From positions 806,001 through 870,000 of the forward strand of contig NZ_FMXT01000001.1 in the NCBI RefSeq assembly GCF_900104335.1: a stretch of DNA of 64,000 nucleotides, read 5' to 3'. Below the pieces are notes generated by a model. The model was given only the letters and a program-made list of their open reading frames with translations, was not told the DNA's origin and did not search any database. Of this stretch, positions 7,205 through 23,222 are shown piece after piece; position 1 is the stretch's first letter, and each line of letters opens with the position of its first letter. The translations under genes were made by a program, and so were the position numbers. The stretch comes from Pseudobutyrivibrio sp. YE44 (lineage in GTDB: Bacteria; Bacillota; Clostridia; Lachnospirales; Lachnospiraceae).

Positions 7205-7639
7205 CTATGCTAGTTGAGCAACATCTATCAATTGAACTTTTTCATCTAACGAAAAATCCAATTTCTTTATCTGCTGAACTCTAATCTTATATATATTATT
7301 TAGTTCTGAATTATACTGAAACTGTGGCCTCCTCTCCTTAATCAATTCAACAGCCTTATCTGCCTTATCTAATTCAAGTAACTCCGCCTGTCCATATACA
7401 GTAATATTTTTTAAACCAGATTGTCCCTCATGCTGAAATATAGCAGCCACATTGGAGTTATTATTAATTTCAGTTGCCTTTGCAGTGTCCTTTTTGGTTT
7501 GAAATACTATATCTGTACCATCTACATTGTAAGCACCAATATGCCTTAGATTAGGTGTGCAATTCTCTGTAACAGTTGCTAAAACAAGGCTCTTATTCTC
7601 AACCAAGTAATCCTGATACTCTTTTAATGTAATTCCCAT
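7205..7639 (-). CDS. Pyridoxamine 5'-phosphate oxidase-family (FMN split-barrel) protein
   Basis: This 144-residue protein has the flavin split-barrel pattern of the PPOX superfamily: a strand ending in LVLATVTENCTPNLR, the YNVDGTDIVFQTKKDTAKA segment and a central NVAAIFQHEG strand. GGGAGGTAGAATAA precedes the ATG. Family members bind FMN or F420 or have lost the cofactor, so activity is not assignable. It is the last gene of the long minus-strand unit carrying the MATE exporter and second radical SAM gene, 22 bases after the MATE stop, so it may be co-transcribed with the nitrogenase-like locus. Confidence 0.75.
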   Translation of the reverse strand: MGITLKEYQDYLVENKSLVLATVTENCTPNLRHIGAYNVDGTDIVFQTKKDTAKATEINNNSNVAAIFQHEGQSGLKNITVYGQAELLELDKADKAVELIKERRPQFQYNSELNNIYKIRVQQIKKLDFSLDEKVQLIDVAQLA

Positions 7640-7661
7640 TTATTCTACCTCCCTATGAAAT

Positions 7662-9002
7662 TCATATAAAGTTCCTAATGTTTGCATCATATATTTTCCT
7701 ATAACAGTAGTATCCAATTAGAAGTCCCACCAGCCAGCCAATAGGCCAGGCAAAAGGAATAAAGTTTAGTCCCCCAAAATAGGCTAATATATATCCTGAT
7801 AAAACTCTACATAACAGATTTAAAGAATAGCTAATCATAAATCCTCTTGAATCCCCAGCACCTCTAATAGCGCCATTATATACTTGAAGGACACCTTGAA
7901 TAATTTGAAATATGCAGATAATGTACAAATATCTCAACCCAAAATTCATTGCCTCATAATTGCCCACATCCTTTATAAATAATGACAAAAGTCTGGTGCC
8001 CGAGGTGAATACTAATATAAGAATTATTATAGAAAATGGAATATCTAGCATGATTGCAGACCAGATTCCCCTTTCAACCCTTTCCTTTTTATGTGCTCCG
8101 TAATTTTGAGCAGTGAAGGTTGCAATCGAATTACCTATATCCATTACTGGTAAAGTTACAAGGGCTGTTATCTTTGTAGCTGCAGCATATCCTGCCATTA
8201 CATTTATCCCATAAGAATTAATTAATGATTGCATAATTGTAACACCAATCGCTATAACGCTTCTTTGTACTATAGCTGGAACACTTGCATTCACAATTCT
8301 TCGTGTTTCTTCCAATTCTATTTTTTTATTCCAGTCTTTTATCTTTAATCTAATTAACGTCCTATAAAGAACAGAGCTAGACCATATACAACAAATGAAT
8401 TCTGCAATTACCGTAGCTAATGCAGCACCTGCTACTCCAAGCCTCATATTCCTGATAAAGATAATATCTAAAACAATATTTACCACTGCACATACTACAA
8501 GTGATTTAAGTGTTGTTTTGGAATCCCCTAAAGCCTGTAGTATGGCAATGCTTATATTAAAAATAAATAAGAATAGAAGACCGCTTAAATAAATCCGTAT
8601 ATAAGCTAATGATTCTGACATCATTTCCTGAGGTGTAAGCATAAATTCAAATACGTAAGGAGCAGCAAAAACTCCTCCTACAGAGAATAATATGCTAATG
8701 ATTAAAGCCAATCTTAAAGCTGAAATAACACCTTTGCTTAATCTTGAATAATCATTCCCTCCGAAATGAGCTGCCAGAATAACATTGGTTCCCATATTAA
8801 GTCCTACTGCTATATTTATGAGAAGTGAAACTGTATTTGTTGCACTTCCAATTGCCGCCATGGATTTCACTCCTGCATACTGACCTACTATTACGGCATC
8901 CACAAGACTATATAGCTGCTGGAGCATATTCCCAGCAGCTATAGGTATAGCAAATCTGAAAAGGATTTTTGAAATATTCCCTTTCGTCATATCTAAAATC
9001 AT
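7662..9002 (-). CDS. MATE-family efflux transporter
   Basis: This 446-residue protein has 12 predicted membrane segments in two homologous halves, as in MATE (NorM/DinF-like) exporters, which use a Na+ or H+ gradient. RFAIPIAAGNMLQQLYSLVDAVIVGQY at the start and RGAGDSRGFMISY in the second half are typical. It follows the second radical SAM gene by 15 bases and precedes the PPOX-type gene by 22, so it belongs to the same transcript. This suggests export of a product or toxic intermediate of that locus, but MATE substrates cannot be read from sequence. Confidence 0.9.
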   Translation of the reverse strand: MILDMTKGNISKILFRFAIPIAAGNMLQQLYSLVDAVIVGQYAGVKSMAAIGSATNTVSLLINIAVGLNMGTNVILAAHFGGNDYSRLSKGVISALRLALIISILFSVGGVFAAPYVFEFMLTPQEMMSESLAYIRIYLSGLLFLFIFNISIAILQALGDSKTTLKSLVVCAVVNIVLDIIFIRNMRLGVAGAALATVIAEFICCIWSSSVLYRTLIRLKIKDWNKKIELEETRRIVNASVPAIVQRSVIAIGVTIMQSLINSYGINVMAGYAAATKITALVTLPVMDIGNSIATFTAQNYGAHKKERVERGIWSAIMLDIPFSIIILILVFTSGTRLLSLFIKDVGNYEAMNFGLRYLYIICIFQIIQGVLQVYNGAIRGAGDSRGFMISYSLNLLCRVLSGYILAYFGGLNFIPFAWPIGWLVGLLIGYYCYRKIYDANIRNFI

Positions 9003-9017
9003 AGTTTTTGATTCCTT

Positions 9018-10265
9018 TTAGCTAGCATCTGCAATAAGTGTCTTTGGAGATGTAATGACTGGAGAAGGTGTTATAACCTCTGAGGTTGGAATACCTTCGT
9101 AGAGTCTAAACAGATCATGAGCAACACTGTCACTACCTGCTGTAGCATCTGCAAACTGTTGCCATGTCAATCCGTTTTTACGATATATCGCCACAGCTTT
9201 TTCAAATACATCCCAATGCCACTCTGCATTTGGTGTTCTGTGTCCTTCAAGAGCTGATCCGCAATTTGGATTCCACTGGCTAGGCAACGCAACAACACCA
9301 TGCTCAACCAGATACTCAAGTCCTTCTATTGTATACTGCTTTGGTTCAATACCTGATACCATTGTTGATCTAACATTGAACTTGCCAAATACATCCACCT
9401 CATATTCCAAGGCTTTCAGCCAGTTATCTCTACCTCCACAATACTCTGTTTTACCTGGGCAAATAACATCAAAAATCTTAGGATTCCAAATCTCAATATT
9501 GCTAGCAATAGTTCTAAAGCCAGCCTCTTTATAATTCTCAAATACTGAAAAGTCCTTAGTTGCTCCAACACAAGCAGTTCCATTAAAGTCATCTAATCCG
9601 GTAGCCTCTTGAATTGCCTCTGCCACATCAATGTAGTATTCAACTTCTCTACGTTCAGGAATGAAACCTCCGCTTACTGTCATCTTATTAAAGCCTTCTT
9701 TGTAACCAGCAGCTATTGTCTCTGCTATCTGCTGTGGCGTCTTCCAGGAAACCTTATCTCTCTCTCCATATAATGCTTTAGTAGCATTTATATTGCAGAA
9801 CAGACAATCTAAACCTTTATCCTTTAAGAAGCATTCATTACTATAGGATACAAACATATGACCATAGCCATAATCTACAGCAACAGTTCTCATATCTGTT
9901 CCATCTGAGGTTTTAAGATTGTAGTAATTTGCTCGTTTAGCAAACTGAACATTATCTAATACTATCTGATTCTTATGCTCAATAAAGTATCTACCATCCT
10001 CATATTTGAGGGTATAATCACTACTCTTATCCCATACTACCCGTACCTGATATCCTCCCTTTGGTGTAATCAGGCATACTGGGAAATTGTATGCCACATG
10101 AGCATGTCTATCACTTGAAAAAAGTACATTCACCTGTTCCTTGTACTTTGTACCAAGCTCCAAATCCTTAAAGATTTCTGGATCAAAATTTAATCCGTCT
10201 ACCTGAAGCTCATTTTTTAATCTAATCTCCGCCAACAATTCCTGATCCAATTTTGTCTCTGCCAT
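9018..10265 (-). CDS. Radical SAM protein, nitrogenase-like locus, copy 2
   Basis: This 415-residue protein has an unusual cluster motif: Cys145, Cys154 and Cys157 in SNECFLKDKGLDCLFCNIN (C-x8-C-x2-C instead of C-x3-C-x2-C). VSGGFIPERREVEYY follows, consistent with a radical SAM barrel. Further conserved blocks are GTACVGA, CPGKTEYCGGRDNW and GSALEGHRTPNAEWHW. It is a clear paralogue of the protein at 18255-19439 over nearly the full length. AAAAAGGAGATTGAT precedes the ATG. Within its operon it follows a binding protein and permease. It presumably cleaves SAM to 5'-deoxyadenosyl radical; substrate unknown. I do not recognise a named family. Confidence 0.82.
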   Translation of the reverse strand: MAETKLDQELLAEIRLKNELQVDGLNFDPEIFKDLELGTKYKEQVNVLFSSDRHAHVAYNFPVCLITPKGGYQVRVVWDKSSDYTLKYEDGRYFIEHKNQIVLDNVQFAKRANYYNLKTSDGTDMRTVAVDYGYGHMFVSYSNECFLKDKGLDCLFCNINATKALYGERDKVSWKTPQQIAETIAAGYKEGFNKMTVSGGFIPERREVEYYIDVAEAIQEATGLDDFNGTACVGATKDFSVFENYKEAGFRTIASNIEIWNPKIFDVICPGKTEYCGGRDNWLKALEYEVDVFGKFNVRSTMVSGIEPKQYTIEGLEYLVEHGVVALPSQWNPNCGSALEGHRTPNAEWHWDVFEKAVAIYRKNGLTWQQFADATAGSDSVAHDLFRLYEGIPTSEVITPSPVITSPKTLIADAS

Positions 10266-10283
10266 ATCAATCTCCTTTTTTAA

Positions 10284-11066
10284 TTATTTGTTACTAGGTG
10301 CCCAAAACAATGCTCGCTTTTGAATATTTATCATTAATAATTCGATAAGTAATCCAAAAATACCCATAGATATAATTCCAATGAAAAGTGTTGCAGGTTG
10401 GGCCATCTCTCTACCATAGGATATTAAAAATCCTATTCCTGCAGATGCAGCAATCATCTCAGCTGCAACAACACAAGTCCATGAACTACTCACTCCCAGT
10501 CTCAAGCCAGTAAAAATATATGGAGTAGCTCCAGGAATTATTATTGAAAATAGTACCTGCTTTTTATTCTTCTCAAACATTTTTCCAACCTCTATAAATT
10601 TGGCATCTATGGACTTTAAACCTGAGATAGTATTAATCAATGTAGGCCAAAAGCTTCCTAAAGCAATTACAGCAACCTTTGATTCCTCCCCAATTCCCAT
10701 AGATAAAATCATAAGGGGAATCAGTGCAATAGCAGGGATTGGTCTAAGCATTCCAATCAATGCAATAGTTGATTTATTTGCAAAATCATAAAGACCAATT
10801 ACTATACCAAGAGCCAACCCTAAAATACTTCCTATAAAGAAACCTTTAATGACTCTAGAAAAACTAGCTACAACATGTTTCAAATATTTCCCATCAAAAA
10901 CCATCTCTTTCCATGTTGAAAATAACTTACCTGGAGTTGGAAAAACTGAATTATTCAACACTTCTGATTCTGTTCCTATATACCAAAACATCACAATCAG
11001 TATTGGAATCCAAATCGCAATAAATACTGGACTAATATATTTTTTAATAGAATTAATTTTTACCAT
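10284..11066 (-). CDS. NitT/TauT-type ABC transporter permease, copy 2
   Basis: This 260-residue membrane subunit resembles SsuC/TauC permeases, with about six membrane segments. The EAA-type loop is around IDAKFIEVGKMFEKNKKQVLFSIIIPGATPYIF, and SSWTCVVAAEMI is family-typical. GAGGACACGCCT precedes the ATG. It lies 10 bases after the binding-protein gene and 18 before the second radical SAM gene. No ATPase is encoded in this half of the locus; the SsuB-like ATPase at 16675-17463 may serve both permeases. SsuC-type systems import sulfonates, nitrate, cyanate or thiamine precursors; here an organosulfur compound is inferred from context. Confidence 0.87.
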   Translation of the reverse strand: MVKINSIKKYISPVFIAIWIPILIVMFWYIGTESEVLNNSVFPTPGKLFSTWKEMVFDGKYLKHVVASFSRVIKGFFIGSILGLALGIVIGLYDFANKSTIALIGMLRPIPAIALIPLMILSMGIGEESKVAVIALGSFWPTLINTISGLKSIDAKFIEVGKMFEKNKKQVLFSIIIPGATPYIFTGLRLGVSSSWTCVVAAEMIAASAGIGFLISYGREMAQPATLFIGIISMGIFGLLIELLMINIQKRALFWAPSNK

Positions 11067-11076
11067 AGGCGTGTCC

Positions 11077-12078
11077 TCACTTTATATTTGCAAGTTCTAA
11101 GTAGTCAGTATTGATATACTCAGTAATATCAAAATCCTTTTCGATTAATCCATAGGTAAAGGACTGCTGTTCTCCTTCTACTAGGGCATTAATATTGTTG
11201 CTATCTATTCCTACACTTATTTCAGAATCAATTATTGTCTTATATGTTGTATCAACATCAACATCATCAATATCCTTTATAATTTGAGCTGCTTCTTCCG
11301 GATTCTCAACTGACCATTTTGCAGCTTTATCAAGTGCCTTTAAGTACTTAGCCACCAAGTCTGGATGCTCTTTTCCAAATTCTGCTCTGTCTACTGTAAT
11401 TGATACATACTGTTTATAGCCTTCCGCATTTGCAACAACATGAATGCTGTCCTCTTTTTCAGCAACTGCTCTAAAATGAGGTTCCCACACAATAGCAGCA
11501 TCAATATCACCAGCCAATAAACTTGTAACTCCATCAGCCACACCCAAATTTAAGATTTCAACATCATCTTCTGTTAAACCAACGGAATCAAGATAAATGT
11601 ATAACAGTGGCTGTGCATTAGAACCAAATGGAACTGACACTTTCTTTCCCTTTAAATCAGCGAGAGTTTCTATTCCAGAATCATTTCTAGCCAATAGTCC
11701 ATGAAGTTTATCTGATGCTCTAGTCTTTGAAATAATTTCAATATCTACGCCATTTGATATAGCTGAGAAAGCTGGTTGATCTCCCATAAATCCAATGTCT
11801 AAATCCCCAGCAGTAAGTGCCTCTATAATAGGTGGTCCATAACTGAAAACCTGTGTATCTATAGTCAAACCCTCCTCCTCAAAATAACCATTATGTTCAG
11901 CTATGTTCGCTAATAAATCGCCAGGCTGTCTTCCAACTCTTATTACTGTATCATCCTTTAAATCACTACCTACTTCGATTTTTTCGTTTGCTTCTACGGT
12001 TGATGATGATGTGGTGCCACACCCAACAACACCTATTGACACTACTGCCGAAAGTAATAACATTGCTAATTTCTTCAT
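11077..12078 (-). CDS. NitT/TauT-type ABC transporter substrate-binding lipoprotein, copy 2
   Basis: This 333-residue lipoprotein has signal MKKLAMLLLSAVVSIGVVGC with the lipobox Cys near residue 20. The mature part carries the SsuA/NMT1-like pattern: RVGRQPGDLLANIAEHNGYFEEEGL, QVFSYGPPIIEALTAGDLDIGFMGDQPA, LKGKKVSVPFGSNAQPLL and AGDIDAAIVWEPH. I start at 12078, where AAGGAGGAAAAAGAA precedes ATG; the frame is open to 12114 without a site. It is 20 bases after the nucleosidase stop and 10 before the permease. The ligand is unknown; aliphatic sulfonate-like or other small organosulfur compounds are likely from family and operon. Confidence 0.87.
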   Translation of the reverse strand: MKKLAMLLLSAVVSIGVVGCGTTSSSTVEANEKIEVGSDLKDDTVIRVGRQPGDLLANIAEHNGYFEEEGLTIDTQVFSYGPPIIEALTAGDLDIGFMGDQPAFSAISNGVDIEIISKTRASDKLHGLLARNDSGIETLADLKGKKVSVPFGSNAQPLLYIYLDSVGLTEDDVEILNLGVADGVTSLLAGDIDAAIVWEPHFRAVAEKEDSIHVVANAEGYKQYVSITVDRAEFGKEHPDLVAKYLKALDKAAKWSVENPEEAAQIIKDIDDVDVDTTYKTIIDSEISVGIDSNNINALVEGEQQSFTYGLIEKDFDITEYINTDYLELANIK

Positions 12079-12097
12079 TTCTTTTTCCTCCTTTTTT

Positions 12098-12799
12098 CTA
12101 TGAAATCTTTTCAATATAATCCACTATGATTTCCCCTGGAATTCCGAAAACCTTTTCCTTGAGTTTTTGTTTCTTTTCGTCGTTTTCCAAAGACAAGCTA
12201 AGTTTTTTTATGGTCTTTCTATTTGCCATATCAGAAAATGACCTAATCCCCACAAAATCAATATCTTTAGCCGTGGCGACCTGGGCTATGGCAGCTGTTT
12301 CCATATCAAAAGATAATGGTTTAAATTGCTTCTTTATCTGTCTACGTTTTCTCCCCTCAAATAAAACAAAATCACCTGTTGCAAGTCTTCCTGTTTTATA
12401 ATTAACTCCCTTTTCCTCAGCTATCTTACTAAGCTCAGTTATCAGTTCCGCTGGAGTACCATTAATAGTTGGGAAATTTTCTGGAAGTAAGGTTTTCAAA
12501 TCAACCTGCACATATTCCTTACCAATGACAACTGAGCCAACCTTAAGGTCATCATCCAATCCACCAGCTACTCCTATATTTACGATTAAATCTGGGGAAA
12601 AATAATTAATGGCATCTGCCGTCTGAAATGCTGCATTTACCTTTCCAACTCCTAGTACCTTCACATAAACTTCAATACTATTGTTGTCATTGATATATTG
12701 GTTTTCACCTATCTTTCTCCAAATATCTTTTTTCAAAATGTACTTCTCGAGATTTTCTACTTCCTTGTCTAAAGCACTGACTATTAATACTTTTTTCAT
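12098..12799 (-). CDS. mtnN: 5'-methylthioadenosine/S-adenosylhomocysteine nucleosidase
   Basis: This 233-residue enzyme removes adenine from methylthioadenosine, S-adenosylhomocysteine and 5'-deoxyadenosine. Visible motifs are VSALDKEVE near the start, LGVGKVNAA, NIGVAGGL, ATGDFVLF, the ribose-binding Glu in FDMETAAIAQVA and the catalytic Asp in VGIRSFSDMA. AAAGGAG precedes the ATG. It is the first gene of the second half of the nitrogenase-like locus, after a tandem leader and terminator. With two radical SAM proteins nearby, it could clear 5'-deoxyadenosine or recycle a SAM-derived product. Confidence 0.93.
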   Translation of the reverse strand: MKKVLIVSALDKEVENLEKYILKKDIWRKIGENQYINDNNSIEVYVKVLGVGKVNAAFQTADAINYFSPDLIVNIGVAGGLDDDLKVGSVVIGKEYVQVDLKTLLPENFPTINGTPAELITELSKIAEEKGVNYKTGRLATGDFVLFEGRKRRQIKKQFKPLSFDMETAAIAQVATAKDIDFVGIRSFSDMANRKTIKKLSLSLENDEKKQKLKEKVFGIPGEIIVDYIEKIS

Positions 12800-12821
12800 A
12801 TGCCGTATTTCTCCTTTGAAT

Positions 12822-12929: not shown

Positions 12930-12934
12930 GCTAT

Positions 12935-14362
12935 TTAGTTGTATAATTGTTTTCTTCTTGAAGCAGATAAATCCTTAGAAACTATACCTCTTTGAGATAT
13001 ATCAATCCATTTATCTTCTGCCTTCAGAGATTTAAAGCTTGATATAAGCGAAGTCTTTTCGGCATCCTCATACTTCTCAATTCGAGATTCATAGTTTTCT
13101 ACAAATGCTAAAACACCTCTAGTTCCAACACTTGCTCTGTTTAAAATAAAACTATGATATATTGGATATGATACTTCCAGTAAAGGAATATTTAGCTTTT
13201 CCTCCAAGCCTTTTTCAAGAGAACTTCCCAATATCAATTCCGCATTACTTGATTTTATTATCCCTTCGATTTCCTTTTTATCCTGTGAATAATAAACCTT
13301 TTCTGCCAGATCATTAAGAATATCAGAATTATTTCTCTCGTGAAGCTCATCCTTTGCCTTTGCATCCACTATAACAATGCTGGCAACCTCTGCAGCGAAA
13401 TAATCGTTAAGAATCTTAGCATATCTATATGACTGTTCTTCATCACCAATTATAACCACTCGTTTTGACAAATCATTTTTATTTCTAGCTGCAACAACCT
13501 GTGAAATGAAACTATTTTGATAATCCCTTTCCTGTTCAATAAAAGCATCGACATCCTCTTCACTGACTTCAGCGTATTGACTTACCGAACGAAGTAGTTT
13601 TTCCTCTTCATCCACATTTACTGGAAGAGTATCTACATTTAATACAGGAATATTAGCCTTATCATTTAGAAACTTTGCAGGTGCTTCTCCCCATCGTGAA
13701 AATACGATACTGGCTGATGCTTTATATGCATCCACCAAATCCTGTACACCGCCAAATGTTCCAAAGAATAAATTTACCTTTAAGCCAACAGCTTCAAAGA
13801 TTCTTTTAATCTCCTCAAGATTTCCCTGCCAATAAACATCCTTATAAGGTACTATTCCAAAAATATTGATAAGCTTTGTATCTTTCTCTTCCTCTACATT
13901 TTTTATACCTGGAATTCCTTTTAAAATATCAACCAACACATTTTCATAACCCTGATATGCATTTCCATTGAAACCAGCTCCTAGAGTATCAACTACAGGC
14001 TCTCCCTGTTCCACGATTTCTCTAGTCATGGCATCAACATCATCTCCAACCATTGCAGATTCACAGCTATTTAGGATAACGAATAATTCGCCATTTATTA
14101 TTTTTGCTGTATTTTTTATCTGTTCGCGAAGACGTGACGCTCCTCCGAAAATTACATGACGTTCCTGTGCTACTGTTCCTGGGATTCCAACACCAGACAC
14201 ACCACTGGCAACACTTGTACTTTTGCTATCAACTAGCTGATTAATTACTCCACAGCCTGCATTAGCATGAACAACTGGGATAGCCCCCTTTATCTCCTGC
14301 ACCGTTTGAAGTGCACCGTGAAGCACGCAGCCACTTCTTGGATTTTCTATAACCTTTGACAT
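12935..14362 (-). CDS. Nitrogenase-like reductase subunit, three-cysteine (NifK/BchY-like)
   Basis: This 475-residue protein belongs to the NifD/NifK/BchN/BchY oxidoreductase superfamily. Its only cysteines are Cys12, Cys37 and Cys100, in RSGCVLHGALQ, HANAGCGV and ILNSCESAMVGDDV. Both sequence and spacing match the cluster ligands of this superfamily. No other Cys exists to bind a FeMo-type cofactor. It starts one base after the previous gene's stop, with AGGAGGTAAGCTAAT. It is the last gene of the H-D-K set; a leader and terminator follow. It presumably forms a heterotetramer with its neighbour that receives electrons from the NifH-like protein. Substrate unknown. Confidence 0.85.
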   Translation of the reverse strand: MSKVIENPRSGCVLHGALQTVQEIKGAIPVVHANAGCGVINQLVDSKSTSVASGVSGVGIPGTVAQERHVIFGGASRLREQIKNTAKIINGELFVILNSCESAMVGDDVDAMTREIVEQGEPVVDTLGAGFNGNAYQGYENVLVDILKGIPGIKNVEEEKDTKLINIFGIVPYKDVYWQGNLEEIKRIFEAVGLKVNLFFGTFGGVQDLVDAYKASASIVFSRWGEAPAKFLNDKANIPVLNVDTLPVNVDEEEKLLRSVSQYAEVSEEDVDAFIEQERDYQNSFISQVVAARNKNDLSKRVVIIGDEEQSYRYAKILNDYFAAEVASIVIVDAKAKDELHERNNSDILNDLAEKVYYSQDKKEIEGIIKSSNAELILGSSLEKGLEEKLNIPLLEVSYPIYHSFILNRASVGTRGVLAFVENYESRIEKYEDAEKTSLISSFKSLKAEDKWIDISQRGIVSKDLSASRRKQLYN

Positions 14363-14363
14363 A

Positions 14364-15786: not shown

Positions 15787-16665
15787 TTAGATAGCTTCAG
15801 CAACGCCACCTACAACACCATTTTCAATATCATATATACGGTCTCCCCAGGTTCTTGCCCAATCTCTAAGTTCGGTAGAACCAAGTGGATTTGGAACCAC
15901 AAGATCTTCATTTTCAGCAATATGTTTAGCAAGATTTCTATAAATGTCAGCCTGAGCGCTGTTTGGCTTTGCCTCAATAACAGTCTTTCCATATAATTCA
16001 CTCTGCTGTACATCCAAAGAACGATTTACATAACCTGCAATGCTTGTTCCCGTCTTTGCAACGAAATCATCAACAATCTCTCTGTGATAACCTGGCTTCA
16101 TACTATTTGCAATTACACCACCAAGCTTTGCGCCACCTGTTGGAGCATATTTGTTGATAGCCTTGAATAAGTTATTAGCTGCATATAAAGCCATGAAATC
16201 AGATGAGCTTACAACATAGGCTCTATCTGTAATGCCATCTCGAATAGGAACTGCAAAGCCGCCGCAAACTACATCGCCAAGTACATCATATAAAACGTAA
16301 TCTGGCTTAAATTCTTCAAAGAGATTAAGCTCCTGCAGAAGATTTACCGCTGCGTTGATTCCACGTCCTGCACAGCCTACACCAGGAACAGGACCACCTG
16401 ATTCGATGCAAAGAACTCCACCAAATCCTTTAACTGAAATATCATCCAAATGAATTTTGTTACCCTCTCTTAAACTATCAAGTACTGTTGGAAGATAGTT
16501 ATTTCCTCGAAGAGTATTTGTAGAATCACTTTTAGGATCACATCCAATCTGAATTACTCTATATCCTGCTTCAGCCAACGCTGCACTAATGTTTGATGTG
16601 GTTGTTGATTTTCCAATGCCACCCTTTCCATATATAGCTATATGCTTTCCAATTTTCTCCGCCAT
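15787..16665 (-). CDS. NifH-like ATP-dependent iron-sulfur reductase
   Basis: This 292-residue homodimeric electron donor is close to NifH/BchL/BchX. It has the P-loop GKGGIGKST (residues 13-21) and [10 protein letters not shown]. The [4Fe-4S]-bridging cysteines are Cys98 in GVGCAGRG and Cys134 in [15 protein letters not shown] hydrolysis would drive low-potential electrons into the two following subunits. TTAGGAGGCAGAT precedes the ATG. It is 9 bases after the ABC ATPase gene, so transport and reduction genes share one transcript. No nifB, nifE, nifN or dinitrogenase homologues lie in the window, so nitrogen fixation is unlikely. Confidence 0.95.
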
Positions 16666-16674
16666 ATCTGCCTC

Positions 16675-17463
16675 CTAAATTACATAATCTTCTTCGATTT
16701 CTTTTTCCTCAAAGAAATAATTGAATATCTTTTTCTTTTTAAGAACAAAGTATTGATCATTTCTATGTCTTGGTCTTGAAATATCAATATCAATAATGTC
16801 TTTAATCTGACCTGGTCTATTTGAAAGAACAACAACTCTGTCCGCCAAATATACCGCCTCTTCTATATCATGGGTAACCATAACCATTGTGGTTCCCTCC
16901 TGCTCCTGGATAGCTAAAAGCTCATCCTGAAGCTGAATTTTTGTAAAAGCATCAAGGGCACCAAAAGGTTCATCCAATAATAATACTGGAGGATTATCCA
17001 CCAAAGCTCTCGCGATATTTGCTCTTTGAGCCATTCCACCGGATAACTCCTTAGGATAGGATTTAGCAAAATCTGAAAGATGAACAAGCTCTAATATCTC
17101 CTTTGCTCTTCTCTTCTTTTCAGCCTTTGGAACCCCGTCTAAAGCAAATTCAACATTTTGCTGTACAGTCATCCATGGAAATAATCTAGCCTCCTGGAAT
17201 ACCAGTCCTCTTGTTTTGGATGGACCATTTATGTCTTTTCCAGACACTGCTACATTTCCTTCAAATTCCAAATCCAGGCCTGCAATTGTTCTAAGCAACG
17301 TGCTTTTTCCACAACCACTTCCGCCAACAATACAAATAAATTCTCCCTTTTTTACCGATAGATTTATATCATTTAAAACTGTCAGCTCATTTGAATTTTC
17401 AAGTGTAAACTTCTTATGAAGATGGGTAATATCTATTATTTTCTCTGAATCCTGTAATGCCAT
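16675..17463 (-). CDS. NitT/TauT-type ABC transporter ATPase
   Basis: This 262-residue ATPase resembles SsuB/TauB/NrtD. It has Walker A GGSGCGKST, signature LSGGMAQRANIARAL, Walker B VLLLDEPFGALDAF and the switch His in MVTHDIEEAVYLA. RGLVFQEARLFPWMTV is a family-typical Q-loop. It lies 19 bases after its permease and 9 before the NifH-like gene. It is the only ATPase for two permease/binding-protein sets in this locus, so it may energise both. Import of a small anionic or organosulfur compound is inferred from the family. Confidence 0.93.
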   Translation of the reverse strand: MALQDSEKIIDITHLHKKFTLENSNELTVLNDINLSVKKGEFICIVGGSGCGKSTLLRTIAGLDLEFEGNVAVSGKDINGPSKTRGLVFQEARLFPWMTVQQNVEFALDGVPKAEKKRRAKEILELVHLSDFAKSYPKELSGGMAQRANIARALVDNPPVLLLDEPFGALDAFTKIQLQDELLAIQEQEGTTMVMVTHDIEEAVYLADRVVVLSNRPGQIKDIIDIDISRPRHRNDQYFVLKKKKIFNYFFEEKEIEEDYVI

Positions 17464-17482
17464 TTTTAGTCACCTCTATTCT

Positions 17483-18271
17483 TTAAGATATATTCCATGC
17501 CAGTACTTTACTCTCGATCCACTTAAGGAATACATCCATGAGTTTTCCTACTACACCAATTGCAAGCATTCCTACAATTACTGTATCCATCTGACCATAA
17601 TTTCTTGCATTTGAAATCATGTATCCAATTCCACTTGTTGAAGCCACAAGCTCTGCTGCTACTACACAGCTCCAGCAGCTTCCAAGAGAAACTCTAAGTC
17701 CTGTGAAAATGCTAGGTAAAGCTGCTGGAATGATTACCTGTGTAATAACCTTCCATTTAGGAGTTTCAAGAACCCTAGCTACCTCTAATATCTTTGAATC
17801 AGTATATAAAATTCCTTCACTTACATTAATTAAATTAGTGAAAAAGCCACCTAAAAATATAAGAAATATTTTTGAGCTTTCACCAATTCCCATCCACAAA
17901 ATTACAAGAGGAATCCATGCAATAGGTGGAATAGGTCTTAATACTTGTATAACTATATCTGTAAGTTTCTGCATATTTTTTGAAAGGCCAACAAGTATAC
18001 CTAAACCTATTCCAAAGAAAGCTGAAAGAAAATATCCCTCCAACACTCGTACAATGCTAACTCCCAACTCAGCTAAAAGAGAACCATTAACTATTTTGGT
18101 TGATAATGTATTCAGGACCATATTAGGTGTTGGTAAAACTACAGTGTTTACAGTCCCCTTATTCACCACATAAATCCAAAGAGTAAATAAGAATATAATT
18201 GGTATAAATCCCTCAAATGTAGAGCCAATTACTGTATCGTTCCATTGTTTTCTTCTACTCAACAATCTCAA
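17483..18271 (-). CDS. NitT/TauT-type ABC transporter permease, copy 1
   Basis: This SsuC/TauC-like permease of about 260 residues has the EAA-type loop ILEVARVLETPKWKVITQVIIPAALPSIFTG and SCWSCVVAAELVASTSGIGYM. It overlaps the end of the radical SAM gene by up to 17 bases. The start codon is uncertain: the frame opens with TTG at 18271 and further TTG codons follow at 18265 and 18262. GAAGGGA places one of these later TTGs at better spacing. No ATG start is available near the N-terminus, which is unusual for this window. It pairs with the binding protein at 20163 and the ATPase that follows. Confidence 0.87.
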   Translation of the reverse strand: MRLLSRRKQWNDTVIGSTFEGFIPIIFLFTLWIYVVNKGTVNTVVLPTPNMVLNTLSTKIVNGSLLAELGVSIVRVLEGYFLSAFFGIGLGILVGLSKNMQKLTDIVIQVLRPIPPIAWIPLVILWMGIGESSKIFLIFLGGFFTNLINVSEGILYTDSKILEVARVLETPKWKVITQVIIPAALPSIFTGLRVSLGSCWSCVVAAELVASTSGIGYMISNARNYGQMDTVIVGMLAIGVVGKLMDVFLKWIESKVLAWNIS

Positions 18272-19439
18272 TCCCTTCTTCCAATCTAATCAAATCATGA
18301 ATAACTGTGTCTGGATCTGCTGTAGCATTTCTTAGAAGCTCCCAGGTTAATCCATTTCTAAGGTAAATAGCCTTAGTTTTTTCAAACACATCCCAATGCC
18401 AATCTGGGTCTGGTGTTCTATGTCCTTCAAGGGCAGAACCAACATTTACATACCACTGGCTAGGAAGTGCAACTATTCCCTTAGATACTAAAGTGTCGAT
18501 TCCTTCAATCAGCGAATCCTTTGGCTCTATGCCAGATACCAGTGTTGAACGTACATGGAACTTTCCAAATATATCTACCTCAGCATTTAAGGTATCAATC
18601 CAGTTCTTTCTTCCACCACAAAGCTGAGATTTTCCTGGACAAATTACCTCAAACATTTTCTCATCCCAAATTTCAATGTTAGTTGCAATTGAGCTAAATC
18701 CTGCTTCCTTATACTTTTCAATTACCTCAAAATTATCTGGGGCACCTACACAGGCTGTACCATTGAAATCCTCGGTTCCAAGCTTATCCTGAATTGCCTC
18801 TGCAATATCGGCATAATAATCAACCTCACGTCTTTCAGGAACAAAGCCACCGCTTACTGTTAAATGATCAAATCCATTTGCATAACATTCTTCAACTGTT
18901 TCAGCAATCTGATTTGCATTCTTCCAATTAATATTCTGATCCTCACCATACAAATCCTTTGTTGCATTGATGTTACAGAATAAGCAATCCTGACCTTTAT
19001 CCTTCAAGCAGCACTCGTTACTATAAACAATGAAAATATTTCCATAGCCAGCATCCTGAGCAATTGTTCTCATATCAGCTCCATCAGAAGTTTTCTTTGC
19101 ATAATATGGAGCTCGTTTAGCAAATGAAATGTTTTCAACTACAAGCTTTCCATCTCTTTTGATATTAAATACACCATTCTCATTTACAAGTACAAAAGGA
19201 CTTCCTAGATTCCATCTGATATGTACTCGATAATTTCCAACTGGAAGATAAAAAACACTTGGAAACTCAATTTTCTTGTGGGCATGTCTATCGCATGTAA
19301 ACAAGGCATTTACACGTTCTGCATACTTATCACCAATGCTTGCTGCATCAAAAATATGTGGATCAAATCTTAATCCTTCAACCTGGATTTGATTCTTAAG
19401 TTTAATAGACTCTAACAATTGCTCATATGTGTAGCTCAT
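18255..19439 (-). CDS. Radical SAM protein, nitrogenase-like locus, copy 1
   Basis: This 394-residue paralogue of the protein at 9018-10265 has cluster cysteines Cys143, Cys152 and Cys155 in a C-x8-C-x2-C motif, with an extra Cys144. Shared blocks are DRHAHKK, TSDGADMRT, GYGNIFIVYSNEC, CNINATK, VSGGFVPERREVDYY, GTACVGAP, CPGKSQLCGG and GSALEGHRTPDPDWHW. I start at 19439 because AAAAGGAGAATAGTT precedes that ATG; the frame extends to 19475, inside the SDR gene. It probably acts on the transported substrate or matures the reductase, but the reaction is unknown. Confidence 0.82.
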   Translation of the reverse strand: MSYTYEQLLESIKLKNQIQVEGLRFDPHIFDAASIGDKYAERVNALFTCDRHAHKKIEFPSVFYLPVGNYRVHIRWNLGSPFVLVNENGVFNIKRDGKLVVENISFAKRAPYYAKKTSDGADMRTIAQDAGYGNIFIVYSNECCLKDKGQDCLFCNINATKDLYGEDQNINWKNANQIAETVEECYANGFDHLTVSGGFVPERREVDYYADIAEAIQDKLGTEDFNGTACVGAPDNFEVIEKYKEAGFSSIATNIEIWDEKMFEVICPGKSQLCGGRKNWIDTLNAEVDIFGKFHVRSTLVSGIEPKDSLIEGIDTLVSKGIVALPSQWYVNVGSALEGHRTPDPDWHWDVFEKTKAIYLRNGLTWELLRNATADPDTVIHDLIRLEEGIEIVE

Positions 19440-19452
19440 AACTATTCTCCTT

Positions 19453-20148
19453 TTACTTAATTCTTTGGGCACCATTGTTTACATCAATTGTCTCACCATT
19501 AATGTATTCAGGCGCATCTGTTGCCAGCCAGATTATCGCATCCGCTACTTCTTCTGGTTTTGCAATCCTTCCAAGTATTGTTCGATTTTTCAGTTTCTCA
19601 TATCTATCGCTAAATCTTGAATTTTCAATCATTGTTGTTTCTACTGGTCCAGGAGCTACTGCATTAATCTGCAATCCTTCAGGTCCAAGCAAACCAGCAA
19701 AGCTCTTTGTGGCATTTACAAGTCCGGCCTTTGTAATTCCGTACCAAACATCTCTGTGACCTATTTCCGCAGCCTGAGATGCTACATTAACAACCTTTCC
19801 GTTGTTCTTAACTAGGGTTGGTGCGAATAAAGTGATTAATTCCACTGGTGTCTTAAGATTTACATTGATAATCTTCTCAATATTCTCCTTAGGATAATCA
19901 TCATAGTTTTTCTGGCTACCGATTCCCGCATTGTTTACTAATACATCGATATCTCCAACCTCTTCAACCAATGATGGTAGTTCATCTATATTGGATAGAT
20001 CAAAGGATATGGTCTTAACCCCCTCTACTTTAAAGTTTGAGAAATCACGTCCTACAACAGTGACATCAAATCCTAATTCCTTTAGCTTAATTGTTGTAGA
20101 AAGACCAATTCCCTTTGTTCCACCTGTAACTAATGCCTTTTTTGCCAT
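19453..20148 (-). CDS. Short-chain dehydrogenase/reductase
   Basis: This 231-residue SDR has cofactor motif TGGTKGIG, NNAG, catalytic Ser in VASQAAEIG, the YxxxK pair in WYGITKAG and PGPVETTM after it, all at classical positions. VVGRD at the end of strand 2 suggests NADP(H) preference, with Arg after the glycine. GAGGAGAAATAGTT precedes the ATG. It is 14 bases after the binding protein gene and 13 before the radical SAM gene, so it is an integral member of the locus and could oxidise or reduce an alcohol or carbonyl intermediate. Substrate unknown. Confidence 0.9.
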   Translation of the reverse strand: MAKKALVTGGTKGIGLSTTIKLKELGFDVTVVGRDFSNFKVEGVKTISFDLSNIDELPSLVEEVGDIDVLVNNAGIGSQKNYDDYPKENIEKIINVNLKTPVELITLFAPTLVKNNGKVVNVASQAAEIGHRDVWYGITKAGLVNATKSFAGLLGPEGLQINAVAPGPVETTMIENSRFSDRYEKLKNRTILGRIAKPEEVADAIIWLATDAPEYINGETIDVNNGAQRIK

Positions 20149-20162
20149 AACTATTTCTCCTC

Positions 20163-21239
20163 TTATTTCTCACCATTCAAGTAAGCCTTAACTGTCTCGT
20201 CATTAACAAATGTGTCGTTAACAAAATCCTTGATTGTAACCTGGGTAGATGCCTTACCTGTTTCATACAAGAAATCAGCGGTTCCCTGTAAGTCATCGAT
20301 ATCATCCTGCTCAATAACAATTGGGAAATTGGCATCCTCAAGAGCTGCATACAACAAATCAGTAGTTAAACCATATTTTTCTGCATACTGCTCAGAATAT
20401 TTCTCCTTATTGTTTGCAAGCTCATAGGCTGCTCTTGCATACTGCTGAATAAAAATTTGTACAATTTCAGGATTCTGCTCTACATACTCTCTGTTTCCGA
20501 AGATTGTATTTTCAGCCTTGAAAAGTCCATTCTCACCATCAATAAGTCGACGATTGCTTCCATCTGCAGTAAGCTTTGCAACTGTTGGCTGCCAGGTCGC
20601 AACTGCGTCTACCTGTCCAGCTGCAAGAGCTGCCTGCTGTTCACTAGTTGCCAGGTTAACGAGCTCTACATCATCAAGAGTTAATCCTTCTGTCTTAAGT
20701 ACGTTATAAACTAAGTTCTCGCAAATAGAACCAACAACTAAGCCAATCTTCTTACCTTTCAAATCTGCAACATTCTTTATATCAGAAGCTTCAGGAACAA
20801 TGATAACCTCTGTCTTTTCACCATTTTCAGAGATGCCCAGATAAACTCTATCCTGTCCAGAGGCCTTTCCTAATATAGAAGGAACATTTCCCATTACACC
20901 AATATCCTGCTGTCCTGCTGCAAAGGATTCATTTTCTGGTGGTCCTGACTCAAATTCTGTATAGGTAACTTCAACATCACCATAACCTGCCTCAGCAAGA
21001 GCTTCTTCTACCCAACCGTTGTCCCAGGCAATCTGAATTGGTAAGTATCCTGGTGCAGGCTGTGTAGCAATATTAAGTCTTTTAGCCGTATTTAATTCAA
21101 CCGGACTACCAGCCTCAATATCTGTAGTATTGTCAGCACTGTCTGTATTTGATGAGCTTCCACAACCAATAAATCCTACTGTTGATAATGCTCCGATTAA
21201 TGCTAATGAAATTATTCTATTTATAAATTTGTTCTTCAT
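20163..21239 (-). CDS. NitT/TauT-type ABC transporter substrate-binding lipoprotein, copy 1
   Basis: This 358-residue lipoprotein has the lipobox Cys near residue 26 (GFIGCGSSS). Mature features are LNIATQPAPGYLPIQIAWDNGWVEEAL, FESGPPENESFAAGQQDIGVMGNVPSIL, LKGKKIGLVVGSICENL and AAGQVDAVATWQPT. This is the SsuA/TauA-type fold. It is related to copy 2 at 11077 but clearly divergent, so the two may bind different members of one compound class. AAAAGGGGAAATATA precedes the ATG. It lies 26 bases after metK. Confidence 0.87.
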   Translation of the reverse strand: MKNKFINRIISLALIGALSTVGFIGCGSSSNTDSADNTTDIEAGSPVELNTAKRLNIATQPAPGYLPIQIAWDNGWVEEALAEAGYGDVEVTYTEFESGPPENESFAAGQQDIGVMGNVPSILGKASGQDRVYLGISENGEKTEVIIVPEASDIKNVADLKGKKIGLVVGSICENLVYNVLKTEGLTLDDVELVNLATSEQQAALAAGQVDAVATWQPTVAKLTADGSNRRLIDGENGLFKAENTIFGNREYVEQNPEIVQIFIQQYARAAYELANNKEKYSEQYAEKYGLTTDLLYAALEDANFPIVIEQDDIDDLQGTADFLYETGKASTQVTIKDFVNDTFVNDETVKAYLNGEK

Positions 21240-21265
21240 TATATTTCCCCTTTTTTATTTATTTT

Positions 21266-22510
21266 TTATACAATGGCCTTTTCCACTGCTTCAGCCACTA
21301 CCTCTAAAAAAATCTTGAATTCTGGACTATCCAACTGCTTCTTAATCGCCTCAACCTTATCTAAATGCTCCCAAGGAAGGTCCACATCTGTTCTGCCGAA
21401 GTGTCCATAAGCTGCAGTCTGCTTGTAGATTGGCCTACGTAAATCAAGGGCATCGATAATTGCTGCTGGTCTAAGATCAAAAACTCTTTCAATAATTTCA
21501 ACAATCTTTTCATCCTCAATCACTCCTGTTCCAAATGTTTCAACTGCGATTGAAACTGGCTTTGCAACACCAATAGCGTATGCAAGTTCAACCTCAACTC
21601 TCTTAGCAACACCTGCTGCTACAAGATTTTTTGCCACCCATCTAGCTGCATAGGCTGCAGAACGATCGACCTTTGTTGGATCCTTTCCTGAAAAAGCTCC
21701 GCCGCCATGGCGACCAGTTCCACCATAGGTATCCACGATTATCTTTCGTCCTGTCAGTCCTGCATCTCCCTGTGGACCACCGATAACAAATCTTCCAGTT
21801 GGATTTACATAATAAATTGTGTCTTCATCTAGGAGTTCTTCTGGAATTACCGGCTTGATAACATACTTGATGATATCTTCTCTAATCTGCTCAAGAGTTA
21901 CATCCTCTGCATGCTGTGTTGAAATAACAATGGTATGTACTCTCTTTACAGTGTGTCCATCTTCAGCGAATTCAACTGTTACCTGAGATTTTCCATCTGG
22001 TCTAAGGTATGGAAGTGTTCCATCCTTTCGAACCTTTGTAAGCTGTCTAGTAAGACGATGAGCAAATGAAATAGCTGGTGGAAGAAACTCTGGTGTTTCG
22101 TCTGTTGCATATCCAAAAATGATTCCCTGATCTCCTGCTCCTGTACCAAAATCCTTTGTCTCTCCTTCCTGCTTTGATTCGTATGCTTTATCAACACCAA
22201 GTGCGATATCTGCTGACTGCTCATCTATTGATGTAAGCACTGCTATTGAATCTGCGTTGTAACCATCTACATTGTTTACATATCCAATCTCTCTGATTGT
22301 TTCCTTTGCTATCTTTGCAATATCTACATAAGCCTTTGTTGTGATTTCACCAACCACAAGTGCCAGTCCAGTTGCAACTGTTGTCTCAGCTGCTACTCTT
22401 GAATAAGGATCCTGAGCTAATAACTCATCGAGAATTGCATCTGAAATTTGATCTGCAATTTTGTCTGGATGTCCCTCTGTTACTGATTCTGATGTGAATA
22501 ACTTTCCCAT
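21266..22510 (-). CDS. metK: S-adenosylmethionine synthetase
   Basis: This 414-residue enzyme makes SAM from methionine and ATP. Family motifs are [32 protein letters not shown] and [20 protein letters not shown] start at 22510 because AAAAGGAGAAAAAAT precedes MGKLFTSES; the frame is open to 22576 but that part overlaps the leader terminator. A 26-base leader element and terminator precede it, the same element as before mtnN, so it is probably controlled by attenuation. It is followed directly by the transport and reductase genes, tying them to SAM metabolism. Whether this is the only metK of the genome is unknown. Confidence 0.96.
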
Positions 22511-22555
22511 ATTTTTTCTCCTTTTCCTTTTCATTTTTTCTAATTGGGGTTGTTT

Positions 22556-22645
22556 TTTATAAAAAAAGAGGCTCAAGATAACAACTCATCTGCTAATTAG
22601 CAAATGATGCTTTTATCTTGAACCTCTAGTTTGTCTAGTCAGTTC
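22556..22645 (-). promoter_or_regulatory. metK leader: conserved element plus intrinsic terminator
   Basis: On the minus strand GAACTGACTAGACAAA followed directly by CTAGAGGTTC occupies 22620-22645. Its 3' end is the start of a 15-bp terminator stem (22567-22627, with one G-U pair and an inner palindrome TGCTAATTAGCA) followed by TTTTTTT. The CTAG/CTAG inner stem is perfect here, versus one mismatch in the mtnN copies. The shared element in front of a SAM-making and a SAM-product-cleaving gene suggests sensing of SAM, SAH, MTA or a related signal. No S-box consensus is present. Confidence 0.8.
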
Positions 22646-22658
22646 TATGAACTCTTCC

Positions 22659-22802: not shown

Positions 22803-22838
22803 TTCCTCTCCTTTTACTTTGTTATTTTTAACTTACAC

Positions 22839-22908
22839 TGGTGCTAGTTGGATTCGAACCAACAACTTCAGCTTTGCGAGCCTATGCCATTCCAGCGGCT
22901 ATAGCACC
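22839..22908 (-). tRNA. Divergent tRNA-Cys-type gene (anticodon GCA), non-canonical
   Basis: A 70-base cloverleaf can be drawn. The acceptor is GGTGCTA/TAGCACC and the D arm GCC...GGC has a short loop containing TGG. The anticodon stem has one mismatch and the loop is TCGCAAA. The T arm GTTGG/CCAAC has loop TTCGAAT. The anticodon reads GCA (Cys). Three oddities stand out: position 33 is C rather than the near-universal U, the discriminator is A instead of the U73 preferred by CysRS, and no CCA is encoded. It follows the attenuator of the poly-Cys ORF. It may be a tRNA with a non-ribosomal or regulatory role, or a decayed gene. Confidence 0.7.
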
Positions 22909-22945
22909 AAAAAAGCCACTGCCTAGTCTCCCAAGCAGTGGCTTT
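22909..22945 (-). terminator. Attenuator-type terminator after poly-cysteine ORF
   Basis: An 11-bp stem, AAAGCCACTGC (22935-22945) with its complement (22912-22922) around a 12-base loop, is followed on the minus strand by TTTTTTGG. It sits 22 bases after the peptide stop codon and directly before the tRNA-like gene, so it can set read-through into the downstream genes. Confidence 0.8.
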
Positions 22946-22966
22946 CGATTATTTCGTATTTACGAA

Positions 22967-23086
22967 TTAATCTCTTTCAGGAGCAAGACAAGAAGCCATG
23001 CACCCTAAAGCTTTTTGCCCTTGGGAGTATAGCGATTCGCACATACACATACAACAACAGATTTCAGTATTAAAATATGGTCTCAT
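22967..23086 (-). CDS. Poly-cysteine leader peptide (39 aa)
   Basis: This ORF reads MRPYFNTEICCCMCMC, then a tail with GCMASC and ending APERD. It has 7 Cys and 4 Met in 39 residues, with five Cys codons in a span of seven (codons 10-16). AAAGGAGCAAGACA precedes the ATG. The ribosome site and start are within a 13-base segment exactly complementary to the 3' end of the ORF. A terminator follows, then tRNA-like, DUF2292-like and metK genes. Poly-Cys ORFs acting as cysteine-sensing attenuators are known from mycobacteria; a similar role is inferred here. A metal-binding or modified peptide is an alternative. Confidence 0.72.
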   Translation of the reverse strand: MRPYFNTEICCCMCMCESLYSQGQKALGCMASCLAPERD

Positions 23087-23098
23087 TGTCTTGCTCCT
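22979..23098 (-). repeat. Inverted repeat sequestering the poly-Cys ORF ribosome site
   Basis: On the minus strand AGGAGCAAGACAA (23086-23098, containing the Shine-Dalgarno bases and ending at the A of the ATG) is perfectly complementary to TTGTCTTGCTCCT (22979-22991, in the last codons of the ORF). Thirteen contiguous base pairs enclose about 94 bases. The structure would hide the ribosome site in mRNA unless a ribosome occupies the ORF. Confidence 0.82.
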
Positions 23099-23102
23099 TT
23101 CT

Positions 23103-23157
23103 CTCATTAAAGCTTCCCTTTGAGGGGAAGCTGTCAGCTTCAGCTGACTGATGAGGT
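23103..23157. repeat. REP-like palindromic element
   Basis: Two adjacent hairpins, AGCTTCCC/GGGAAGCT and GTCAGCT/AGCTGAC, are followed by TGATGAGG. This looks like the small interspersed palindromic repeats frequent in Lachnospiraceae and other clostridia. It lies in the 5' leader of the poly-Cys ORF. Only one copy is obvious in this window. Confidence 0.6.
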
Positions 23158-23186
23158 GTTATTTCTGATTCATTTAACTTGCTGAT

Positions 23187-23222
23187 AATATAACTTTAAA
23201 AACCTATCAAGTCAATAGGTTT
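23187..23222 (-). promoter_or_regulatory. Promoter and CymR-type operator of the nitrogenase-like locus
   Basis: TTGACT (23210-23215) and TATATT (23187-23192) on the minus strand are 17 bases apart. The perfect operator AAACCTAT, seven bases, ATAGGTTT (23200-23222) overlaps the -35 box. Transcription would run through the poly-Cys ORF into metK and the reductase genes when sulfur is limiting. Confidence 0.82.

Follow-up and report, generated by a model that had tools for sequence, protein, structure and literature searches.

A 64,000-nucleotide stretch of the genome of Pseudobutyrivibrio sp. YE44 (family Lachnospiraceae), hereafter the window, carries on its minus strand an operon in which the genes of a nitrogenase-like reductase (NifH-, NifD- and NifK-like subunits: H, D and K, together HDK) stand among genes for radical S-adenosylmethionine (SAM) proteins (rSAMs), ABC importers and SAM synthesis. 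We consider it, with a probability of roughly 70%, to be a sulfonate-scavenging operon of the Isr type, whose joint mechanism would include importer–rSAM modules and a leader reporting cysteine status. The Isr type is represented by IsrBHDK, an isethionate reductase with SsuCAB, from Rhodobacter capsulatus (Morimoto et al. 2024, PMC11423573; for this and the other articles cited, our statements concern the accessible parts of their text). An initial annotation of the window had held that no nitrogenase-like enzyme with such a gene set was known, which is out of date given that article; its proposal of organosulfur import and ATP-driven reductive C–S cleavage in a sulfur setting is supported by homology to IsrBHDK.

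According to the proposed mechanism, two SsuA-type importers would take up small sulfonates, and each would be paired with its own rSAM, which would act on that substrate and consume SAM. One shared reductase (H2 and D2K2, with one four-cysteine [4Fe-4S] site per DK) would give ATP-driven low-potential electrons, and the rSAM and HDK would together release sulfite reductively from the sulfonate. MetK would renew SAM, and the nucleosidase would remove 5΄-deoxyadenosine, a compound that MTA/SAH-type nucleosidases clear; the sulfite would then join a putative route to cysteine. A Cys-rich peptide, terminators and a tRNA-Cys-like RNA (TLS) would form a cysteine-status leader that sets expression. 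We infer the chemistry, the substrates, the order in which the rSAM and HDK act, the clusters and the regulatory mechanism, and take the activity from that of the homologue.

The minus-strand gene block that the initial annotation had described is real and placed as described there, with named genes spanning 7205–22510 (Table 1), and it recurs in relatives. Our survey comprised 78 loci from named genomes, found by a D-alignment search, with D present in the open reading frame (ORF) survey of 74; gene frequencies were taken from the 39 named loci with more than 9 kb on either side of D (the full-flank set), and matches were scored on the D strand. H and K were found in all 39 loci (the K scored at locus L140 is possibly another K-type gene lying some distance away), an rSAM in 36, an importer binding protein (SBP) in 32, metK in 26 and the MTA/SAH nucleosidase-like protein (MTAN) in 15. 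The recurring block is more than chance. In the own genome PF00148 matched only two proteins, the D and K of the block.

As judged from sequence, the window enzyme is an Isr-family reductase, of the kind characterized in 2024. The initial annotation had suggested a superfamily tree as a check; when we computed one for D and K (144 chosen sequences from hand-picked loci, with ORFs below 405 or above 720 aa excluded), both were set apart from MarDK and fell into an Isr clade instead. The window D lies in a clade with support 1.0 and the window K in one with support 0.989, MarD and MarK lie outside both, and the same supports were obtained after 16 sequences had been added. Members of the Isr-type clade come from Rhodovulum strictum, Rhodopseudomonas, many Clostridia and spirochaetes. 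The gene order in R. strictum is rSAM-H-D-K, the same as that of isrBHDK in R. capsulatus (PMC11423573), and in a search of 295 genomes of the Rhodovulum family Rhodovulum alone matched at 1e-80.

The cysteine ligands agree with this placement. In the clade alignment of D (33 rows, one locus being present twice, as L127 and L194), the Cys88-type ligand is retained in 32 rows, the Cys154 position holds Pro in 30 and Ser in 3, and the Cys275 position holds Cys in none; all three ligand cysteines of K are retained in 32 of 33. CCC was present in the D of the comparison groups (four from the Mar clade, four from a further sister group and five other nitrogenase-like sequences). The published cysteines are 12, 37 and 99 in IsrK, 74 in IsrD, and 99 and 135 in IsrH, with Pro or Ser at the Cys154 position of IsrD and the FeMo-co ligand absent (PMC11423573). 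The window D and K have four of the six P-cluster cysteines and no Cys at 275, and the D has Asn at the Mar cluster-ligand position Cys270. The lone exception in both alignments is the locus of Pectinatus haikarae, where D has Thr and Ser at the clade's Cys and Pro columns and K has lost two of the three ligand cysteines in the alignment columns; these may possibly be degenerate or repurposed Isr proteins.

A NifB-type rSAM was not found in the own genome, where the NifB model gave a 28-bit match at its NifX-like end. A NifB radical SAM domain was not found in five Isr-bearing genomes of the family, the own genome included: in three the model gave weak matches of 28–35 bits, located towards its NifX-like end, and in two it gave none. 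A search of viral contigs gave no relative of K. Taken together, the Isr clade, the one-plus-three cysteine pattern and the failure to find NifB argue for an Isr-family reductase without a FeMo-type cluster, in which HDK would carry one four-cysteine iron–sulfur site. The tree, the ligands and the NifB search likewise led us to drop a nitrogenase reading, as well as readings as Mar or as CfbD/DPOR.

The rSAM partner is probably of the IsrB type, since both window rSAMs and those of Rhodovulum and Rhodopseudomonas match NF045502. The cluster motif C-x8-C-x2-C is present in 47 of 48 rSAMs. An AlphaFold2 model of rSAM1 (pTM 0.91, built from 48 sequences; pLDDT in Table 1) has as its nearest solved folds lipoyl synthase LipA, MqnE, HydE and biotin synthase BioB (TM about 0.4–0.6), with NifB at rank 45. 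Each locus has one H, and the number of rSAMs varies: among the full-flank loci, 3 have none, 20 have one, 14 have two, and one each has three and four, so that at least two rSAMs accompany one HDK in 16 of 39. One HDK thus serves up to four rSAM paralogues, which is new relative to the published Isr system. Module 1 of the window (SBP1, SDR, rSAM1, permease 1 and ATPase) was also found in loci L082, L093 and L101, and module 2, which elsewhere carries its own ATPase, in L068, L069, L081 and L082.

We further compared the divergence of the rSAMs with that of their neighbours. The comparison covered 62 rSAMs, among them both of the window, that have an SBP on their own strand no more than 4.5 kb away; the others were dropped. 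Divergence of the rSAM correlated strongly with that of the SBP (r = 0.77; partial r = 0.74 given D; reached by 0 of 1000 permutations) and weakly with that of D (r = 0.34; partial r = 0.06 given SBP; 80 of 1000). After thinning to 46 of the 62 units, the Pearson coefficients were 0.71 for the SBP (0/1000) versus 0.15 for D (4/1000), and the rank-based coefficients 0.40 (0/1000) versus 0.08 (169/1000). That rSAM divergence follows the neighbouring SBP, not D, is more readily reconciled with a substrate-specific enzyme than with a maturase. Plural, transporter-matched rSAMs, together with metK and the nucleosidase in the operon, would fit a substrate-specific, SAM-consuming enzyme. These comparisons bear on the role of the Isr rSAM partner and point to catalysis on a specific substrate, not to maturation; if so, this would be a nitrogenase-like reductase whose substrate modules can be exchanged.

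Ahead of metK lies a leader (22555–23220) that the initial annotation did not mention, with the order promoter-like site, Cys-rich ORF, hairpin T1, TLS, OscA-like ORF and hairpin T2. For 10 of 15 OscA genes (the window included) a small ORF with at least five Cys codons lies in the 450 bases upstream, compared with 8 of 319 other genes of the same loci; three of these eight control genes are two rSAM genes and one 575-aa ORF behind HDK (L085). The remaining 5 of the 15 OscA genes had no Cys-rich ORF upstream. The Cys-Cys-Cys-Met codon pattern occurs at three other sites of the own genome, on inspection each time out of frame in an apparently larger gene, and was taken there as chance. The arrangement of a cysteine attenuator, in which a terminator comes after a leader ORF with Cys codons, is present, and the regulation itself is a prediction. 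No T-box was detected, the Rfam search of the whole window at gathering thresholds giving the tRNA model as its single match.

The initial annotation had also placed a sulfur-type operator at the head of the block. A dyad, ACCTA-N9-TAGGT (23202–23220), does overlie the –35 box, and 6 of 18 relatives have it a short way ahead of metK; since 3 of the 18 have it far from metK, the pattern arises by chance too, and the operator is supported in part. Promoter-like sites in the region were no commoner than in shuffled sequences (3 found, 3.0 expected).

Two features of the leader were noted by eye. A palindrome, TTCGTAWATACGAA, stands at 22953–22966 near the stop codon of the leader peptide and before the terminator; it is also present in L073, L074, L079 and L080, and in a shorter form in L070–L072. 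A motif of about ACTGACTGGAAAACCAGAGGTT with a terminator-like hairpin follows OscA/YezD and precedes metK or a NifB-like gene in the window (22555–22645), L081, L239, L240, L243, L244, L246 and L247, and is a possible second attenuator. Small Cys-rich ORFs also precede second rSAM genes, as if they were leaders of single modules (L079:14052-14174, L080:17599-17700 and L069:20428-20544).

The TLS of this leader resembles tRNA-Cys in most of its parts, and its arms are conserved by pairing. The element lies before OscA or metK in nine Pseudobutyrivibrio loci (L068–L072, L074, L077, L079 and L080), before OscA in L083, and behind the operon in L086, where ARAGORN called it tRNA-SeC. ARAGORN predicted tRNA-Cys(gca) for 12 elements, those of the window and of 11 regions in other genomes, and no tRNA at the element in the nine Pseudobutyrivibrio loci; the Rfam tRNA model was above threshold in the window and five of six relatives. 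An alignment of 10 sequences showed pairing in all 199 cells and changes on both sides at 7 of its 20 pairs; one of 21 sequences showed pairing in all 386 cells, of which 51 carry double (compensatory) changes. When the 21 sequences were shuffled, the count of doubly changed pairs was reached in 13 of 500 shuffles and the covariation score in none. The folding energy of the single sequence was not unusual (z = –1.3), and the case for the TLS therefore rests on covariation and context.

The departures from tRNA-Cys lie in the anticodon arm and at position 73. The GCA triplet is retained in 20 of 21 sequences, and position 73 is A in 16, G in 5 and T in none. The ordinary tRNA-Cys elsewhere in the own genome has a seven-base loop and T at 73, and U73 is a main identity element of cysteinyl-tRNA synthetase (CysRS). 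The anticodon arm of the TLS has 13–14 nt. In eight sequences a GGCA tetraloop on a stem replaces the anticodon loop, which makes loss of decoding likely in that kind. In the window and the 11 other-genome elements the arm can be drawn either with 4 bp and a five-base loop or with 3 bp and a seven-base loop that has GCA at the anticodon position; the seven-base loop is thus drawable in 12 of 21 sequences, and not in the eight with the GGCA loop or in L086.

A search of the family with model R1 found the TLS in 13 of 299 genomes at 77 bits or more, the next match having 48 bits, the level of ordinary tRNAs. These 13 are the own genome, genome G153, which as the nearest relative in the search is assigned to the same genus, and 11 newly examined regions. 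In nine of the 11 (L239–L244, L246, L247 and L249) the element leads into NifB-type nitrogenase-like clusters with NifB-like, NifX-like, H, mostly CysK-like, D and K genes; H is visible in eight of the nine stretches and D plus K in seven. The NifB model match of L243 (1.1e-79) is below cutoff, L243 being the one cluster whose NCBIfam assignment was checked. None of the eight D/K pairs of the seven stretches (L243 has two) falls within the Isr clade, and CCC is present in all eight D. The D adjacent to a TLS is closest to a sister group of Mar in six stretches; in L244 it is closest to another nitrogenase-like group. We had provisionally labelled these clusters Mar/Nfa-like; after the tree this was replaced by NifB-type nitrogenase-like, Mar-related in six of seven. 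Of the two other regions, L245 has a TLS leading to metK, an Ssu-type transporter and a variant rSAM, with no HDK within 12 kb, and L248 one leading to an amidohydrolase and an ABC importer resembling the window's (by similarity alone).

Model R1 gave no TLS in L073, L075, L076, L078, L081, L082, L084 or L085, of which L076 begins just before metK, and no high-scoring TLS in Isr loci outside the window's group (71 sources). Among 287 genomes at class level (E up to 1e-14), a sample that held at least nine other members of the family, the TLS was found in the own genome and in no other. The element thus appears to be confined to the family and linked to sulfur acquisition. Most novel here is the conserved tRNA-Cys-like RNA that two kinds of nitrogenase-like operon have in common, and it is directly testable.

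Several observations weigh against the Isr reading with substrate modules. Membership of Isr rests on a proxy, R. strictum, and on the residue positions published in PMC11423573; divergence is large (D is 27% identical to that of Rhodovulum), and NifB is present in five other Isr-bearing genomes. The Arg described at the Cys62 position of IsrD (PMC11423573) was not reproduced, the aligned column being mostly Asp (27 of 33) in a part where the alignment is uncertain. As for the modules, the small rSAM–D signal after thinning persists in the Pearson test and is weak by rank (values given above), both rSAMs share the same nearest SBP in 6 of 16 within-locus pairs, and in L106 the rSAMs are 76% alike beside SBPs that are 30% alike. 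No rSAM was detected in 3 of the 39 full-flank loci, nor an SBP on the D strand in 7. Joint movement of rSAM and SBP genes may partly lie behind the co-divergence. In genome G330 one locus (L052/L053) pairs HDK, by eye, with oligopeptide-type ABC transporter genes.

Other explanations have to be weighed on the same evidence. A Mar-like methylthio-alkane reductase feeding methionine salvage would account for metK and MTAN in the operon, and among solved structures the chains closest to the window D and K belong to 9FMG, a Mar entry, and to 9d9u, its twin in sequence (K 2.4e-49, D 2.9e-34). The separate clade, the lack in D of Cys270 and of two of three P-cluster cysteines, the lack of any NifB-type rSAM found in the genome and window rSAMs that are not NifB-like all speak against it, and we regard it as very improbable. 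The initial annotation's return of a methylthio group to methionine is not supported, given the same tree, residue and NifB results; MetK and MTAN more plausibly serve to resupply SAM and to dispose of 5΄-deoxyadenosine. A reductase acting on tetrapyrroles, like DPOR, COR or CfbD, is suggested by the hemL, hemB and hemA genes that adjoin the operon, by heme genes that flank the locus of genome G240 (L054; by eye), and by the want of a FeMo-type Cys ligand, as stated for DPOR (PMC11423573). An AKR-like gene on the other strand separates the hem genes from the operon, the importers are SsuA-type, the tree keeps the window proteins apart from phototroph sequences taken as Bch by genome and position alone, and the hem neighbours are explicable by the siroheme demand of sulfite reduction; this explanation is scarcely credible. 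It is harder to set aside the possibility that the enzyme is Isr and the rSAMs are maturases or activators of HDK instead of substrate enzymes. IsrB is essential in R. capsulatus, with NifB and glycyl-radical activases named as comparisons (PMC11423573), and the SBPs shared within loci fit this role. Several rSAMs per HDK, a divergence that tracks the SBP and not D, and a steady use of SAM suggested by metK and MTAN point the other way, as do the nearest folds, although HydE is itself a maturase. We consider maturases improbable, and retain rSAMs as substrate-specific enzymes.

For the TLS, the alternative is a second tRNA-Cys gene, ordinary or specialized, or a decaying relic without regulatory function. 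The tRNA calls by Rfam and ARAGORN are in its favour, and the drawable seven-base loop with GCA on a 3-bp stem in 12 of 21 sequences led us to raise its standing a little; we still rate it unlikely. Unbroken pairing with 51 compensatory cells speaks against decay, while an ordinary tRNA-Cys elsewhere in the genome, the constant absence of T at 73, the adjoining sulfur-type genes and the nine Pseudobutyrivibrio loci without an ARAGORN call, where the GGCA loop replaces the anticodon loop, speak against a tRNA gene. A bolder reading takes the RNA for a tRNA-Cys mimic in which the elbow and acceptor stem of a tRNA and a GCA triplet are preserved, but the anticodon arm is cut down and U73 is lacking. 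It would form a new cis-acting class in the leaders of sulfur-scavenging operons of Lachnospiraceae, including Isr and Mar-related NifB-dependent ones, and would report cysteine or cysteinyl-tRNA status together with the Cys-rich peptide, the rSAM paralogues being interchangeable modules on one electron source. The same drawable loop slightly lowered our confidence in this class, which we put forward tentatively and at less than even odds. It might act, for example, by holding CysRS, by imitating uncharged tRNA-Cys, or by marking a cut by RNase P/Z after terminator read-through.

The features of the operon are listed in Table 1. As far as its sequence indicates, the window is a sulfur-metabolism neighbourhood: at 346–5859, 43367–44482 and 58093–62389 it contains a sulfate-binding protein and CysT, hemL-hemB-hemA, a MetE-type protein, an importer binding protein weakly similar to cystine-binding proteins, and an Rrf2 regulator whose CymR match is below cutoff. 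Both SBPs of the operon score above the SsuA-family cutoff, and the AKR-like gene between the hem genes and the operon lies at 6009–7163. The setting places a nitrogenase-like enzyme of the gut or rumen in sulfur scavenging. In other loci, HDK and metK of L052/L053 also stand beside a divergent variant rSAM, which with its transporter suggests a different, perhaps peptide-like substrate, and in genome G153 sulfate transporter, AprA-like and CysD-like genes were seen by eye behind the second rSAM module (L050:3205-10001).

Table 1. Features of the operon and its leader in the window, in order of transcription
Feature	Position	Strand	Evidence
Promoter-like TTGACT-17-TATATT with dyad over –35 box	23187..23220	-	motif
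Leader peptide ORF, 39 codons, 7 Cys (CCCMCMC)	22967..23086	-	translation
Terminator-like hairpin T1, U-run abutting TLS	22905..22950	-	z -7.7, 0/200 shuffles
tRNA-Cys-like RNA (TLS), 70 nt	22839..22908	-	acceptor, D and T arms; shortened anticodon arm with GCA; A73
OscA/YezD-like small protein, 47 aa	22659..22802	-	NF033785 (sulfur starvation protein OscA) 1.7e-7, 31 bits, cutoff 85
Terminator-like hairpin T2, between OscA-like ORF and metK	22555..22645	-	z -6.8, 0/200 shuffles
metK, SAM synthetase	about 21266..22510	-	translation; 92% identical to gene before HDK in genome G153
SBP1, SsuA-family binding lipoprotein, module 1	20163..21239	-	TIGR01728 2.8e-58, above cutoff
SDR oxidoreductase, module 1	19453..20148	-	none of 25 displayed models at cutoff
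rSAM1, variant radical SAM protein, module 1	18255..19475	-	NF045502 4.9e-130; AlphaFold2 pLDDT 92.4
ABC permease, module 1	17483..18271	-	PF00528
ABC ATPase, apparently common to both permeases	16675..17463	-	translation; match in 30/39 full-flank loci
NifH-type reductase	15787..16665	-	TIGR01287 4e-112, just under cutoff; P-loop; Cys 98, 134 among four Cys
IsrD-type subunit	14364..15767	-	PF00148 3.9e-59; only Cys = 76
IsrK-type subunit	12935..14362	-	PF00148 3.2e-60; only Cys = 12, 37, 100
MTA/SAH nucleosidase-like protein (MTAN)	12098..12799	-	TIGR01704 86.1 bits, cutoff 73.8
SBP2, SsuA-family binding lipoprotein, module 2	11077..12114	-	TIGR01728 2.6e-59, above cutoff
ABC permease, module 2	10284..11066	-	PF00528
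rSAM2, variant radical SAM protein C-x8-C-x2-C, module 2	9018..10265	-	NF045502 6.5e-136
MATE exporter	7662..9002	-	TIGR00797 1.7e-58
PPOX-fold (pyridoxamine oxidase-like) small protein	7205..7639	-	no model at cutoff; 12/39 full-flank loci

A literature search, with subscription journals mostly outside its reach, gave among the articles listed no description of a TLS leader or of several IsrB paralogues per HDK; three articles that cite Isr (PMC12330013, PMC11659671 and PMC13067680) contain nothing on either in their accessible parts. The nearest described counterpart of the TLS is tRNAOther, a pseudo-tRNA of Bacillus cereus (PMC3399842), which is also a tRNA-like element in a larger regulatory RNA and outside translation; it differs in having a Trp anticodon and a place beside a pathogenicity island, and the accessible text describes no placement in a sulfur-operon leader. 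The cysteine leader uORFC-8-2 of cysS in Rhodobacterales (PMC8632094) shares a Cys-codon leader peptide followed by a terminator, but has two tandem Cys codons, belongs to alphaproteobacteria, and has no tRNA-like element reported in the part accessible. MarBHDK (PMC12552129) is alike in its nitrogenase-like HDK and, as we infer for the window, in C–S cleavage for sulfur scavenging, whereas the window system has no [Fe8S9C] Cys ligand, has an rSAM of another family with no NifB-type rSAM found, and forms a separate clade. With Isr itself the window shares the HDK clade (by proxy), the one-plus-three cysteines, the want of a FeMo-co Cys ligand, the rSAM partner, the SsuA-type transporter and the sulfur setting. 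It differs from Isr in its two rSAM paralogues (elsewhere up to four), many of them with their own transporter genes, in the metK, MTAN, SDR and MATE genes of the operon, and in its Cys-peptide and tRNA-like leader.

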